A DNA stretch of 38,585 nucleotides from Muribaculum sp. (GCA_023664085.1 JAMPGE010000016.1:1-38585); one strand, 5' to 3'; positions 25,581 through 37,199 are shown, counted from the stretch's first letter. Translations and numbers: made by a program. The notes: generated by a model from the letters alone, not told the origin.

Positions 25581-25837
25581 AACTTTTCGTTTTGATGTGT
25601 TTTAAATAGCTTTTGCAAACTCTGTCAATTCCGATATATTAAAAAAACAGACTATATTGCAATTTTCGAAAGCTTATATTTGGAAAAGCACTAAATAGAA
25701 GCACTCTTCAATAAACTTTTCATTTTCTTAACACTCAAGTATTTTAATATGTTCACGATTATAGCTTTTATTTGCATTTTTATCACTGTAGACAACTTCA
25801 TTAGATATTTTATGCATAAGAGTCGTCTTTTATGAAC

Positions 25838-25871
25838 ATTTCTTTGGTTTTCGAAAAAAGTTTAAATCACT
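25838..25871 (-). repeat. copy A of the AGTGATTTAAAC motif
   Basis: On - reads AGTGATTTAAAC, T-run, CGAAAACCAAAGAAATG. About 260 bases upstream of the LRR gene. The rest of 25581-26042 is AT-rich and holds no gene that I can support. Confidence 0.6.
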
Positions 25872-25944
25872 ACAATCTAAAAGTTTATGACTAAACAATT
25901 TGCGAATCAAATTTGTTTGAATAATAAATAAGCCGATGTATAAG

Positions 25945-26020
25945 AGTCCGTCTCATAAAAAATTTAACTTTAGGGGTCGCAACCTTGAGTCGATTTTGGG
26001 TTTTGACGGAGTGAGCAACC
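25945..26020 (+). repeat. solo or degenerate end of the GAGTCCG repeat family
   Basis: Begins GAGTCCGTCTCATAAAAA and continues TTAACTTTAGGGGTCGCAACC, matching the left end of the 161-bp inverted-repeat element at 32365. It is preceded by TAA, fitting a TNA target. The matching right end is missing or decayed. Confidence 0.6.
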
Positions 26021-26042
26021 TATTAGTTTTTATATTTTACAA

Positions 26043-29837: not shown

Positions 29838-29983
29838 AATGTCACTAAAATAAGAGTTCTCACTACATCGCCTCTTCGAGGCTCATTTTACTTATCTTGC
29901 CGATCCCCAGGCTAAAGCCTGGGGTTAACCACGAATCCCGCCTCTCCGAGGCGAGCCCCGACAGTTCTTAATTTAGTGACATT
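29838..29983. mobile_element. 146-bp inverted-repeat element with three internal hairpins (MITE/REP-like)
   Basis: The ends are AATGTCACTAAA and TTTAGTGACATT, with homology continuing about 6 bases further in. Inside are GCCTC-TTC-GAGGC (29870-29882), CCCCAGGCT-AAA-GCCTGGGG... (29905-29924) and CGCCTC-TCC-GAGGCG (29939-29953). There is no coding capacity. It resembles miniature transposable elements or REP-type palindromes. Target duplication is not clear. Confidence 0.65.
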
Positions 29984-30078
29984 AATTTTAATTCCTATTT
30001 CATCTTCTATCTTAAAACAATATTCTCAACTATTGCTACCTATATGCATCCATTATTACTACCAACATACTGCTCTTA

Positions 30079-30556
30079 AATTTCAATTGAGTTTTTTAAG
30101 TTTTTTCCTAATTTCAATCCCTATTTTTTACGTCCGGTTTTGAATTTCAATTGAGTTTTTTACTCCGTTTTTTCCTCATTTCAACCTTCAATTTATACCA
30201 CCCGGTTTTGAATTTCAATTGAGTTTTTTGCTCCGTTTTCCCTGATTTCAACCTTCAATTTATACCATCCGGTCTTGAATTTCAATTGAGTTTTTTGCTC
30301 CGTTTTCCCTGATTTCAACCTTCAATTTATACCACCCGGTTTTGAATTTCAATTGAGTTTTTTGATCCGTTTTCCCTGATTTCAACCTTCAATTTATACC
30401 ACCCGGTTTTGAATTTCAATTGAGTTTTTTGATCCGTTTTCACTTATTTCAACCTTCAATTTATACCATCCGATTTTGAATTTCAATTGAGTTTTATGCT
30501 CTGCTTTTCCTGATTTCAACCCTCATTTATTCCATCCGATTTTGAATTTCAATTGA
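30079..30556 (+). repeat. 67-bp tandem repeat array, seven units plus a partial
   Basis: The anchor TTTCAATTGA recurs at 30081, 30145, 30213, 30280, 30347, 30414, 30481 and 30547, giving spacings of 64, 68, 67, 67, 67, 67 and 66. Each unit continues GAGTTTTTT-GCTCCGTTTT-CCCTGATTTCAACC and ends CCGGTTTTGAA. The whole unit is conserved, so there are no spacers and it is not a CRISPR array. Units in the middle are nearly identical and the outer ones are degenerate. No reading frame runs through it. Confidence 0.9.
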
Positions 30557-30704
30557 TGAAGTTGTCATCCTGTGAGGAAACTCAAAAATCTGGAAATTGA
30601 TTACTTCTATAGTAAAAGGAAGTATTTCTAAATTGAAATAATATGCAGATTTTAGGGGTGCGGCCTGACACACCTTAATACATCAAAAGGGAAAGGCCTC
30701 TTTA

Positions 30705-32301: not shown

Positions 32302-32364
32302 ATTCATTCATCCGAATTGTGTAGCACGGCTAGCGCAACCTAATCTCTCATTTATCTCGTCTTA

Positions 32365-32525
32365 GAGTCCGCCTCATAAAAAGATTAACTTTAGTGGCAG
32401 CTTATTTTTGGCCAATTTCTTTCCATCCCTTCAGGTCACAACCGAAAGGTTGCTCCCTTGTGGATAAAAAGAAATTATCTCTATAATAAGCCACTACTAA
32501 AGCTGAATTTTTATGAGACGTATTC
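32365..32525. mobile_element. 161-bp inverted-repeat element with 3-bp TTA target duplication
   Basis: Ends: GAGTCCGCCTCATAAAAA on the left and, on the opposite strand at the right, GAATACGTCTCATAAAAA. Imperfect complementarity extends inward through CTTTAGT-GGC, TTAT and AATTTCTTT to an apex at 32434-32457 (GGTCAC-AACC-GAAA-GGTT-GCTCCC). TTA flanks both sides (32362-32364 and 32526-32528). No open reading frame. The TNA target and GAG terminus resemble the IS1031 group of the IS5 family, so it is probably moved by such a transposase; none is in this window. Confidence 0.75.
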
Positions 32526-33302
32526 TTAATCTCTCGGAATAAAAGTTTCAAATGTGGAATCATCATAATAAATCATGATTTGTACCACCTTCCTTGGATT
32601 TTTACTAATTTTTGCTATTTGCTCTTCTAGTTTTTTATTTTTTAAGATAAGGTCAATATACTCATTCTCTGTGATTTTATCTTTGTTTTCCGTAAGAGTT
32701 AGAGGGGATTCCTTGCTATTTTTTTTTGCATCTTTGTATCTGGACACATTTCGTAGATTCTCAGCTTCTGGATTCTCTGTAAATTCTGAGTTTTTATTTT
32801 GAAATGAATTGATAGATGAAAAATCTCCTGAGTCTCCTTGATAAGCCGAAGAAACACTCCGTGAATGTGTAGACTTCTCGGGCTCGTCAAATCCAAATCT
32901 TATACTGCCAGAAGCTAATCCTTCATGATTGTAGGAGCCAAGAGTGTCTACACCCGAAGTCATCTGATCGTATCCCTCATTATCAAGATCTATTTTATCC
33001 TCAGTATCTATCCGGCCTTCCTGAAAGGTTAAATTACTGTTAACCTTTTTAGATGAGCCATAGTATGACTCTGAAGAATTCAACATGCTACCTTCTCCGA
33101 AGAGCAACCATAACACATTTAATTCCGGATAGGCATTGTGAATTTGAGAAATAAAAAGATCACTGATCTTCTTATTTCGTCCGGTAAGAAATTGAGATAA
33201 AGAGGGACGGGGAATCTGACTCTGATCTGCAAATTGAGAAGAGGAAATTCCCTTAAATTCTATGAAGAGTTTTAGACGAGTGGCTACATTTTCTTCTTTC
33301 AT
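32526..33302 (-). CDS. HTH (XRE-type) transcriptional regulator
   Basis: 258 residues. The N-terminal 65 form a lambda-repressor-like helix-turn-helix (ATRLKLFIEFKGISSSQFADQSQIPRPSLSQFLTGRNKKISDLF). A conserved WLLFGEGSML follows, as in many Bacteroidota XRE proteins. The middle (about 80-205) is Ser/Asn-rich and probably disordered. A short coiled coil (about 215-240) precedes a terminal beta segment. The gene has its own promoter and palindromes, suggesting autoregulation. Its TAA stop codon is exactly the TTA target of the element downstream. Targets are unknown. Confidence 0.82.
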   Translation of the reverse strand: MKEENVATRLKLFIEFKGISSSQFADQSQIPRPSLSQFLTGRNKKISDLFISQIHNAYPELNVLWLLFGEGSMLNSSESYYGSSKKVNSNLTFQEGRIDTEDKIDLDNEGYDQMTSGVDTLGSYNHEGLASGSIRFGFDEPEKSTHSRSVSSAYQGDSGDFSSINSFQNKNSEFTENPEAENLRNVSRYKDAKKNSKESPLTLTENKDKITENEYIDLILKNKKLEEQIAKISKNPRKVVQIMIYYDDSTFETFIPRD

Positions 33303-33328
33303 ACGATTTGGATTTCTAACTTTTGAGT

Positions 33329-33366
33329 TTGTAAATTTACAATTTTTTCGTTAGAATACAAAATTA
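33329..33366 (-). promoter_or_regulatory. promoter and operator of the HTH gene
   Basis: On -, TAATTTTG (33359-33366) is a perfect -7 element, about 57 bases before the start. Between them lies the perfect palindrome TTGTAAATTTACAA (33329-33342), placed like a self-repression site. Further TTTGCAAA-type sites are upstream at 33393, 33433 and 33674. Confidence 0.5.
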
Positions 33367-34431
33367 AATATTACAAATTTTACAATATTTAATTTTGCAA
33401 ACCAAAATCCGCATGAATATAACTTAGATAATATTTGCAAATTTGTATTTATACACATACTTAAATCTAATACATGGATATAATAGATAATAAATACTTT
33501 AATTCTCCACTTATTATAAATACACAAACATCAGCTTAAATTTTAAATTAAAATTATAGTCATGCTTCAATTTTTTATGCTATTATTCATTATGTCAGTT
33601 AATTATATGTTATATGAAAATATGTTAATTGGTATTTTTTACATTTTGAATTAGTTGCATATGTAATATTTAGTTTTGCAAACACCTCCCCTCTTATCTC
33701 TGTGATTTGCATTATTTAATTATTTTCATTGACAGTGTTTGATTATCTGTTTACATTATTATCATAATTTGGTTTTGTTACCAGTTGCATTTGTATGTAT
33801 CGATTTACATTTGCATTTTACAAATCTGAGCTTTGGCGAGTCGGTGTTTTTGACCAATTTGATCATCTCAGGCATCCTACCCCTTAAATATCTCTCCCCT
33901 TTTTTATTCAGTGAATCCTTTTCACGATTTTCCAAAATGTAAATTTTGAATTTTTCCTTACCATTTTCCGAGATGCTTCAATTTTTACATTATCAACTTG
34001 CTATCTTTCCTATATTAATTAAATATCTCATTGAAAATGTGATATTTAAACTCACATAATTTTTCGATCTATTCGATTCGAATTACAAAACAATCTGCGG
34101 TTTTATGCAAGTACCAGTAATGTTTGGCCTATTTTAGGTTATCATTATCAATAGACTATCCGGTTCTTCCTCCTTCGTATGCTGTTTGATTACCATATTT
34201 ATCTTTATATGCCAAGTTATCCTACATGACAAAATATATTCTTGTAAAATGAGAAGGAGCATCCCCGTTAGGATAATTGATCTGTAATTTAAAATAATTG
34301 TTTTATCATTCCTACTCTTGTCTTGAATGCAACCTGATCCCTACATAGATCCTTCTTGCCAAAATACCCGGAGGCCTGATCTTGAGTTTTAGAAAATGTG
34401 ATGATTGATGTATAACAAGATTAATACGTAT
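33367..34431. other. AT-rich spacer without supported genes
   Basis: This interval holds no reading frame with protein-like composition. Visible structure: TTTTGCAAAC at 33393-33402 and 33674-33683, ATTTGCAAAT at 33433-33442, an imperfect hairpin ATGTAAATTTTGAA/TTCAATTTTTACAT (33937-33990), and TTATCCTA/TAGGATAA (34217-34224 and 34269-34276). Confidence 0.5.
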
Positions 34432-35520
34432 TCATTCAAGGAGCAAGTAGATTGATGAGTTCTCAATCAGCTTTTGCGATCCGAATACGAGTTTTTTATG
34501 CTGATCTTGTTCGAAATTTGTAATCAATTGATTATCCGTAATATAAGCGAAATCGCTGAGATTCCCGTTTTTTAGATCTTTCTTAATAGTGGAAAGATTT
34601 TTCCCATTTTCATTTTTCGTTAAATTTAGAATCATTCCCTTAAATTGAATTCCTTCCTCTTCTGAATTACAATTTTTAATTTTCGAAATAGTGAAATCGT
34701 GATATTGTTTTATGATATATTCTAAAACCTGTGATTCTTTCTTGGGATTACTTACCCATTTTATCTGGACTTTCTTTTCTTCCTTATTTATGTTAACAAA
34801 GACAATGGTCTGGATCTCTTCAAACGTTTTCAGTATAAAAAATTCTTCATCTTCGGAAATGCCTATTTCTTGAAGTACCGTATACCAATCCTCTTCGCTA
34901 TGTATGATTGATGAATGGGATTGTAGTCTCTCAAATTGATAAAGATGGGAAACTATTGAAGACAGATTATTAAGATCCAACATACTGCCTGAAATAACAA
35001 AATCATTAGATAAACAATTTGTATTCAAAGAATTAGACACATATTTACCCTTACCATCATATATCTTTATTTCCCTATATGAGAATGCACGATTAAAACC
35101 CAATTTGGAATAATATTTTACAAGATTTTCATTTGCCGGAATAAGAAAAACGAAATCATAGTTATCTTCCTTTGCAATAGAAATAACCCTATTAATAAGT
35201 CTTTGCATAATCCCTTTATTCCTATATTCCGGAAGAGTTGCGAGGCCACATAGATATAGAGCTTTGGGTAATATTTTTGAATAATTACCTCCACATTTAT
35301 GGTCTATAATTTCCTCTTGAATGATTCTAAATGAATATGGAATTGCCTGTAAAATTCCGACAATATTATTGTCTTCTTCATGAGTCAAAAAGTATCTTTC
35401 ATTATAATATTTATCAAATATTAAAGAAACATATTCAATTTTATCTTTAAAAATTTCCTGCCATATTTGCTTCATGATATGTGCTTTTGAATGATGCTGA
35501 TTTAAGGAAGTATGCTGCAT
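34432..35520 (-). CDS. GNAT-family N-acetyltransferase
   Basis: 362 residues; a start at MKQIWQEIFKD (35475) is also plausible and would remove 15 residues that look unconserved. The N-terminal half carries the GNAT fold: YLCGLATLPEYRNKGIMQRLINRVISIAK holds the acetyl-CoA-binding R-x-x-G-x segment, and FLIPANENLVKYYSKLGFNRAFSYREI follows as the usual motif B region. The C-terminal about 190 residues are not recognised but may be a second, degenerate acetyltransferase lobe. Substrate unknown. It stands alone in an AT-rich, repeat-laden region. Confidence 0.82.
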   Translation of the reverse strand: MQHTSLNQHHSKAHIMKQIWQEIFKDKIEYVSLIFDKYYNERYFLTHEEDNNIVGILQAIPYSFRIIQEEIIDHKCGGNYSKILPKALYLCGLATLPEYRNKGIMQRLINRVISIAKEDNYDFVFLIPANENLVKYYSKLGFNRAFSYREIKIYDGKGKYVSNSLNTNCLSNDFVISGSMLDLNNLSSIVSHLYQFERLQSHSSIIHSEEDWYTVLQEIGISEDEEFFILKTFEEIQTIVFVNINKEEKKVQIKWVSNPKKESQVLEYIIKQYHDFTISKIKNCNSEEEGIQFKGMILNLTKNENGKNLSTIKKDLKNGNLSDFAYITDNQLITNFEQDQHKKLVFGSQKLIENSSIYLLLE

Positions 35521-35651
35521 TTTTGTAATTAGTTATATTATTAAATCAATGTTAAAAGACAATACTTATATCTTTATTTTAAAATAATTCTATACATTCA
35601 AACAATAATATTGGATATCGATTATACTTTTAGTATTTCCGATATAAAGAT

Positions 35652-35839
35652 GTGATTAAAACTTTTTTCAAATGCAATATTTATTAAGATTTGGAGCAGA
35701 TTTTCATTATTGAAGAGGGAGCATAGCGGGCTATGTGACCGATGAAACAATGAAAAGATGCCCAAATATTAATCAATATTGCGTTTGAAGAAAACATTTT
35801 TAAACACTTCTTTAGTTTTTGTAAAAAGTTTAAATCACT
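35652..35839. mobile_element. inverted-repeat element with GGGAGC/GTGACC apex
   Basis: The left end GTGATTAAAACTTTTTTCA pairs with a right end that reads GTGATTTAAACTTTTT on -. Inner arms AAATGCAATATTTATTAA and (opposite strand) AAACGCAATATTGATTAA match, then GATTTGGAGCAGATTTTCAT against TATTTGGGCATCTTTTCAT. The right arm has about 33 extra bases. The apex is GGGAGC-ATAGC-GG-GCTAT-GTGACC (35717-35740). No coding capacity. Contains copy C of the AGTGATTTAAAC motif (35805-35839). Confidence 0.65.
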
Positions 35840-37199
35840 TCATAAATAAAAAAGAATTTGCATGAGATCTAATTATTATATAAACAAATATTTCAATTTT
35901 AATGTTGTACAAAATTAATATTTTTTTACAACCAATCATATCATTTTCAACATTATCCTATAATTGTAGGATAATGCCTAAGGATATTTAAACGATAAAG
36001 ATATTATTATTACCATATATTGATATAAGTTTATAAATAAATTATATTAATTCCTATATATACCCTATCCTGATAACGAGTTTCCCCCGTTATAAAAAAC
36101 TCAGAACATATATAGTTATTCAATACTGTCTTGATATAGTTATAACTATGAATCTCATCACGATAACCATTCCTCCCATAATTCCGGGACAATGAATATT
36201 GTGTGTAATGATTAGAATAAATCTTCCACTGAGTAGAGTAAATCTACTTCTGCATCCACTCGTCTAAATTCCCTATCCATTTTGTATTATTTAATGGATA
36301 ATAATCAAATCTTACTACCGACTAATAATATGCAATTTTTTATTCTTTATCATCTCATCGTTTACATTTTCTCATTATTATATTATTGTGTTTATATATT
36401 ATTCTACTTTTATATTTATTATATATTTATAACATTATCTGTTAGCAATATATTATTATTAGTTGTTTATTTTTCATATATTTATACACATATATTTTTT
36501 TATTCTATAATGTTTATATTATTATTAATATTTTGGACTCCATGTTTTGTTATTTTGATGATTTTTTGTTTGTATTTTTTAATTATTATATTTAATAGAA
36601 TATAGGCATACTCGCATATATTAATTTATACTCAGCGTAATATTTTTATTATATATTTTTATTTTATATATTCTTTTGCGTTTATATTATTTAGCGTAGG
36701 TATTTTATTATTATTTATTTATTTATTGTTATTATTTTCAGATGTATCATTGTTATAATGTTGTTACATCTGTATTATTTTATGCCTATACATTTATGAT
36801 GTTAATATACAATATTCTTTATACGTTTTATTTCTGTCTTGTTATATTATTAGTTTATGCAGAAAACGAAAACCCATCTGATTTGGCACTGCCGGCTCGG
36901 AAGTGGCAAGCCACGTCATTACCATCAATCCAAAGCATCAAAAATTGATCTTTCATCATTCATATGAACTTACGCTGCAACTAAGCATATCGCTTATTAG
37001 TAATATATCTGTATTGTATTCTATATTACCAATATGTCTGAATTTGACCAGGTCAAGCTCTCATGACGTCTCAACCATCTATGGCAAACAGATATGATCA
37101 GCTCGTCAAAGATAAAGACTCATCGGAATTATAATGGGGATTAAATAGGTATTCTACGCTTGTGGTGCTTTAGTATTTATCGGTTCAATCCTTGTGAAA
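35840..37199. other. very AT-rich gene desert
   Basis: Composition is extremely AT-rich to about 36860 and then returns toward average. Open frames here are Tyr/Ile/Phe/Leu-only translations of A/T runs and are not supported. Palindromes: CATTATCCTA/TAGGATAATG (35951-35976, 26 bases with one mismatched pair), ATAGTTATAACTAT (36136-36149) and CAGATGTA/TACATCTG (36739-36772). Confidence 0.5.

Follow-up and report, generated by a model that had tools for sequence, protein, structure and literature searches.

Two short elements in a contig of Muribaculum sp. carry the tip of a specific hairpin fold. Hundreds of copies, spread over several bacterial phyla, have retained this fold despite different termini, and it is traceable to the two ends of insertion sequences that bear an IS5-group transposase gene. 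Among the explanations considered below, we favour on balance that these elements are IS5-derived MITEs in which the hairpin reads inward from the nearest end, is maintained as a fold of one strand and acts as RNA. MITEs of a known IS family are the familiar part of this result; the new part is the conserved interior, for which we found no description.

Two elements with a shared apex

The window, i.e. the whole stretch of 38,585 nucleotides that was analysed (GCA_023664085.1, JAMPGE010000016.1:1-38585), contains two short MITE-like elements with terminal inverted repeats and no transposase ORF. The first, of family A, spans about 161 bp (32365..32525, GGGAGC on the - strand) and is defined by its inverted arms (32364-32382/32508-32526) and a single-hairpin fold. 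Its terminal inverted repeats, obtained from the inverted-arm search and from reading the sequence, are GAGTCCGCCTCATAAAAA on the left (32365..32382, + strand) and GAATACGTCTCATAAAAA on the right (32508..32525, read on the - strand). Reading of the sequence also revealed TTA on both sides (32362..32364 and 32526..32528), a possible target-site duplication; TTA or TTAA flanks occur in several relatives and have decayed in others, and no clear duplication was discerned for family B. The right TTA doubles as the stop codon (TAA on the - strand) of a 258-aa ORF without a Pfam match (32526-33302), so that the insertion target overlaps this stop codon. A 348-bp element at G000:C18 represents family A with both hairpins; 32400-32526 aligns to one of its halves at 84%, and the element at 32365 corresponds to that half, which has the type 1 hairpin, together with the terminal repeat of the opposite side.

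The second element, of family B, spans about 193 bp (35649..35841, + strand) and was delimited by its inverted arms and by its genome copies, of which 8 further near-full-length ones with at least 90% identity are present in this genome. The left terminal inverted repeat lies at 35649..35672 (+ strand; arms 88% complementary) and the right one, found by the inverted-arm search, at 35818..35841 (- strand). Fragments of both families are also present in the window, namely a family A left end broken inside the apex (GAGTGAGCAACC; 25943..26021, + strand, 91% to positions 1-79) and a family B right end without hairpin (25829..25874, + strand, 87% to positions 150-195).

In each element the two halves are mutually inverted and the apex is the tip of a long foldback, with fold z-scores against shuffled sequences of -10.2 for the element at 32365 and -8.8 for the one at 35649. 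The sequence-only reading had claimed that two apices here combine identical flanks with different but paired stems, and this is exact at both sites: the first reads GGGAGC-AACCTTTCGGTT-GTGACC, enclosing AACC-TTTC-GGTT (32434..32457, - strand), and the second GGGAGC-ATAGCGGGCTAT-GTGACC, enclosing ATAG-CGGG-CTAT (35717..35740, + strand). The pattern matched twice in the window and never in 100 shuffles, and the flanks do form the tandem G.A opposition that had been described. A covariance model scored the two apices at 36.9 bits (over 32423-32467) and 55.3 bits (over 35707-35750), respectively, and found nothing else convincing in the window. The outer flank of the 32434 apex is degenerate, with an extra U after GTGACC and AA replacing the first GA; at the 35717 apex, GAAGA/GATGA flanks bring the tandem G.A motifs to three.

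Structure and covariation of the apex

The extended apex, 5' GANGA-GGGAGC / 3' GTGACC-GANGA, comprises two, often three, tandem G.A/A.G motifs between standard pairs, one fixed G.U, a freely covarying stem and an unconserved loop. Its non-palindromic letters (the G.A mismatches and the G.U) are identical across families while the surrounding pairs change on both sides. Stems in other genomes of the genus are ATAGC/GCTAT, ATATC/GATAT, AATGC/GCATT, GATGC/GCATC, AACC/GGTT and AGC/GCT, and the length of the N12 is constant across all these variants.

Stem covariation, which had been predicted together with a call for a statistical test, was assessed in an alignment of 63 diverse sequences. These were drawn from the 121 of 128 sequences that have at least three of the four stem pairs (all four are formed in 105 of the 128); the 12 flank letters were preset by the search pattern and the outer columns were unselected for pairing. 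The prediction held, with 81.3% of the cells paired compared with 57.2% after shuffling, and a covariation score of 0.571 compared with 0.155 for shuffled and at most 0.145 for slid controls. Both-sided changes were frequent in the N12 stem and also outside it, reaching 27-33 sequences each at columns 17-20/25-28 and 8/37. The covariance model additionally recovered the variants GGGAGC..GTGACT and AGGAGC..GTGACT, which place a G.U and an A-U at the pair preset as G-C.

Below the apex, many type 1 hairpins (e.g. L114, L181, L145) share a second conserved feature, an A that bulges out between two G-C pairs and is followed by a 1x1 mismatch (GAG/CC). Regarding terminator features, the stem is long and interrupted, and a T run is found only at the base, where it complements the A run of the terminal repeat. 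A coding reading of the apex (GS....VT) was dropped because the N12 is unconserved and constrained by pairing.

Distribution across genomes and phyla

The 2.16-Mb genome of the window contains 11 copies of the exact pattern GGGAGC-N12-GTGACC with a paired N12 and 31 copies according to the covariance model. They fall into several families with different termini, which are family A (GAGTCCGTCTCAT...), a GGCCCCGACTCAT... type, family B (GAAGTGATTTAAACTT...) and family C (GAAGTTGTCTAAACTT...). Families A and B are each present in several dispersed copies, and most copies of one family inside one genome have identical apices. A common neighbour, which had been proposed as something to look for, did not emerge, as no gene or transposase recurs beside the single-hairpin copies.

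When 85,000 species genomes were scanned, Bacteroidales made up the majority among the matches listed. Paired long-stemmed copies, again among the matches listed, were found in Methylomonas, Thiomicrorhabdus, Verrucomicrobia, Deltaproteobacteria and other Pseudomonadota as well as in Myxococcales, Coriobacteriales, Eggerthellaceae and Candidatus Gallimonas. Model matches per genome amounted to 61 in Porphyromonas somerae, 56 in Pullibacteroides, 49 in Methylomonas, 25 in an Alistipes, 19, 16 and 12 in three proteobacterial genomes and 9 in a verrucomicrobial one. Culturable Bacteroidales with the motif include Porphyromonas (species other than P. gingivalis), Prevotellamassilia and Dysgonomonas. 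The genome search that had been suggested thus took the motif far beyond the two sites of the window, and neither of the outcomes named beforehand as contrary, a motif restricted to two sites or unpaired stem changes, appeared; stem changes were nearly always paired.

Among 198 genomes sampled evenly across the phylum, strong matches were confined to this genome, a patchy distribution as is known for mobile DNA. Carriage by phages was rejected, since only 6 exact matches were obtained from 2.9 million viral contigs, and a plasmid search for copies of the Methylomonas element returned none. Rfam gave no family above the gathering threshold and only chance-level matches at a relaxed one. The hairpins are often located 10-60 bases from contig ends (e.g. 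G015:C1, C4, C6, C22; G332:C4, C19, C90), which suggests that the repeats break assemblies and that copy numbers are probably underestimated.

Probable derivation from IS5-group insertion sequences

Many larger elements contain two apices in mirrored arrangement, each reading inward from its own terminal repeat, and usually pair one GGGAGC..GTGACC with one AGGAGC..GTGACT. In four of them the two hairpins flank IS5-group transposase sequence: L366 of this genome (867 bp), L369 (935 bp), L375 (899 bp) and L370, the largest (1,271 bp, with a 38-bp inverted repeat and two stops). L359 holds a fragment of an IS5-group transposase, and L367 has one hairpin beside an open transposase stretch of 218 codons that is cut by the contig end. 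The transposase belongs to NF033580 (NCBIfam), with DUF4096 and DDE domains. The genes of the two-hairpin elements are all broken or shortened, and the best open one (L367) ends at the contig edge. In these few cases, the type 2 hairpin (base GGGTCGCAG) is 5' of the transposase gene in four elements (L366, L369, L370, L375) and the type 1 hairpin (base GGGCGG or similar) is 3' of the gene in the same four and in L367.

Family A-type ends and hairpins flank the NF033580/DUF4096 sequence in these four elements. According to our analysis, the elements of the window are MITE-like and very probably arose by deletion from insertion sequences that carried an IS5-group transposase gene, the match of shared ends to transposase-bearing elements being of the family A type and not direct for the termini of family B. 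The earlier suggestion that unrelated elements share the apex therefore stands as far as the different termini are concerned but not as to unrelatedness, as the carriers in the genus fit IS5-group deletion derivatives.

The hairpin as a general IS5 feature was rejected: it was absent from four IS5-type genes with long open frames in the genus (38-45% identity) and from the five plasmid IS5-family elements examined, and hence appears confined to a subset of IS5. A search for NF033580 in 18 hairpin-bearing genomes of other lineages yielded few weak matches, none of them beside a hairpin. Element ends in other lineages (CTAG followed by GAGCG..., TTAA followed by GTGGC...) are nevertheless IS5-like in appearance, CTAG/TTAA being the target type of IS5. 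In Prevotellamassilia timonensis, a search of terminal-repeat pairs for an autonomous element returned only MITE spacings. Family B also has derivatives of 58-62 bp with both ends and no hairpin at several sites (L289, L291, L293, L298), which suggests that mobility probably does not depend on the hairpin. At a further locus (L281/L297, G000:C4:27354-27551), a family B element has sequence resembling family C in place of its middle part, apparently through nested insertion.

Probable folding of one strand, more likely as RNA

A structure maintained by the folding of one strand tolerates G.U and not A.C, while a constraint on double-stranded DNA is expected to leave both in equal numbers. Isolated mismatches on the GGGAGC strand in the arms of 131 dissimilar elements comprised 136 G.U and 42 A.C, counted with a scoring that treats the two alike (184 and 74 in an initial version). 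The corresponding p of about 1e-12 assumes independence, and the counts come from related families and are non-independent; the terminal repeats as a control contained too few mismatches to inform. The excess of G.U points to folding of the GGGAGC strand as a single strand, although strand-biased deamination could be another source of it. That selection acts on the RNA or single-stranded DNA structure, as had been surmised, agrees with the covariation, with the G-C/G.U/A-U series at one pair and with this asymmetry, and from these sequence comparisons we regard selection on one folded strand as highly probable. The acting molecule is probably RNA rather than single-stranded DNA, the strand asymmetry itself fitting both.

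In these insertion sequences the gene is separated from each terminal inverted repeat by a structured hairpin about 110 nt long, whose fold is conserved on whichever strand reads inward from the closer end. Regarding function, we posit that the hairpin would act in cis as RNA, in inward read-through transcripts: transcription invading from a host gene on either flank would begin with the folded strand, whose structure would then limit downstream events, i.e. transposase read-through from one side and antisense or end-disrupting transcription from the opposite side. The fold may work through a protein bound at the G.A motifs. Such a role as a kind of insulator can be put forward only tentatively. 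The idea of blocking expression by read-through from outside promoters is shared with the transposase mRNAs of IS10/IS50-type elements, in which fold-back inhibition hairpins serve this purpose; in contrast to those, the hairpin described here is present at both ends and has conserved apex letters.

The mirrored, inward placement fits a structure of the transcript as well as an end-recognition structure of single-stranded DNA, in which the GGGAGC strand would become accessible while the element replicates or transposes and would serve the transposase or a host protein as a binding site. Hairpins of IS200/IS605 and attC are used in this way, as folded single-stranded DNA. Mirrored hairpins next to the terminal repeats are what an end-recognition site would be expected to show, a bias toward host transcription is absent, and the one-strand mismatch asymmetry is explained equally well. 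The fixed G.U and the tolerated G.U at the outer pair are, however, more natural in RNA, derivatives without the hairpin have spread as well, and DDE transposases of elements with terminal inverted repeats act on double-stranded ends. We consider the end-recognition reading unlikely and prefer the insulator-type role in transcripts, itself tentative.

Being structured and present in many gene-adjacent copies, the hairpin might also be a small regulatory RNA or a host-regulatory element spread by MITEs. The copies are intergenic and unbiased in orientation, with co-directional neighbours on the left in 55/99 and on the right in 51/99 cases, which makes a host-selected role unlikely and also gives no indication that host transcription matters. 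Together with the lack of a shared neighbour gene and of an Rfam family, this renders the regulatory explanation improbable. Still less probable is the binding of a protein to double-stranded DNA, either extruded as a cruciform or as a plain duplex: the arms are long and could extrude, but a cruciform or duplex offers no reason for the predominance of G.U over A.C, and a plain duplex none for pairing of the variable N12. The least probable explanation is that of ordinary MITE foldbacks, with arms that are a by-product of MITE formation and a tip inherited from one ancestor, which would agree with the commonness of long-foldback MITEs and with the mostly identical apices of family copies within a genome but not with the invariant G.A and G.U letters amid covarying pairs, the asymmetry of mismatches between strands and the occurrence of the same apex in several phyla.

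It is conceivable, though we would not count on it, that the hairpins represent an undescribed class of structured RNA with interleaved tandem G.A motifs, placed at both ends of an IS clade and its MITEs in several phyla, and that the transposase, or else a host protein with wide conservation, binds this RNA to control transposon activity.

Comparison with known systems

Bacterial MITEs are usually regarded as degenerate ends without a conserved interior. The present elements resemble IS5-family MITEs in being shorter than 500 bp, non-coding and multi-copy, in having terminal inverted repeats and TTA/TTAA or CTAG ends, and in being derivable from elements with an IS5-group transposase; they differ by a hairpin that is conserved in sequence and structure and common to different termini and several phyla. 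Literature on a conserved apex in IS5 or MITEs was not found in a search covering mostly openly accessible journals.

With IS200/IS605 and REP/RAYT, the elements share a structure that adjoins each end of the mobile element and is conserved on one strand. IS200/IS605 elements are recognized by the absence of terminal inverted repeats and by same-strand hairpins, and the elements described here have neither: they possess terminal inverted repeats, a DDE instead of an HUH transposase, and mirrored hairpins of about 110 nt with G.A motifs. REP/RAYT systems consist of palindromes of 20-40 nt and a RAYT HUH transposase, compared with 160-350 bp and terminal repeats here. The bridge or seek RNA of IS110/IS1111 (PMC11187229) is likewise a structured non-coding sequence within an insertion sequence, but belongs to a DEDD element free of terminal repeats, and the short unconserved loop of our apex shows no sign of a guide loop. 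QMITE2, Chunjie, BOX, RPE and SPRITE (PMC10969869) are also multi-copy and intergenic, with transcripts that would fold; the comparison is with their description, which, in the part of that source considered here, includes no apex shared across families or phyla.

Should the hairpin function as RNA, Rfam would be lacking a class of structured transposon RNA; should it function as single-stranded DNA, a DDE element would pass through a single-strand step, which is unexpected. Both readings are testable in the culturable Bacteroidales, and the covariance model offers a direct route for annotating such elements.

Other repeats

Further repeats were seen in the window and in other genomes. At 30080-30560, a 67-bp unit (GAATTTCAATTGAGTTTTTTGCTCCGTTTTCCCTGATTTCAACCTTCAATTTATACCACCCGGTTTT) is repeated in tandem about seven times; a CRISPR array was rejected for this region because the entire unit is repeated, which makes it a minisatellite. 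Another inverted-repeat element (TAATGTCACTAAAATAAGA ... TCTTAATTTAGTGACATTA) with GCCTC..GAGGC hairpins lies at about 29838-29990, and its AATGTCACTAAATTAAGAACTGTCGGGG also adjoins family C copies of this genome (L319, L326, L332). A Coriobacteriales locus (L133) contains two hairpins in direct orientation, at 2359 and 2483, that are 124 nt apart and lie just upstream of AGAGTTTGATCCTGGCTCAG, the start of a 16S rRNA gene.
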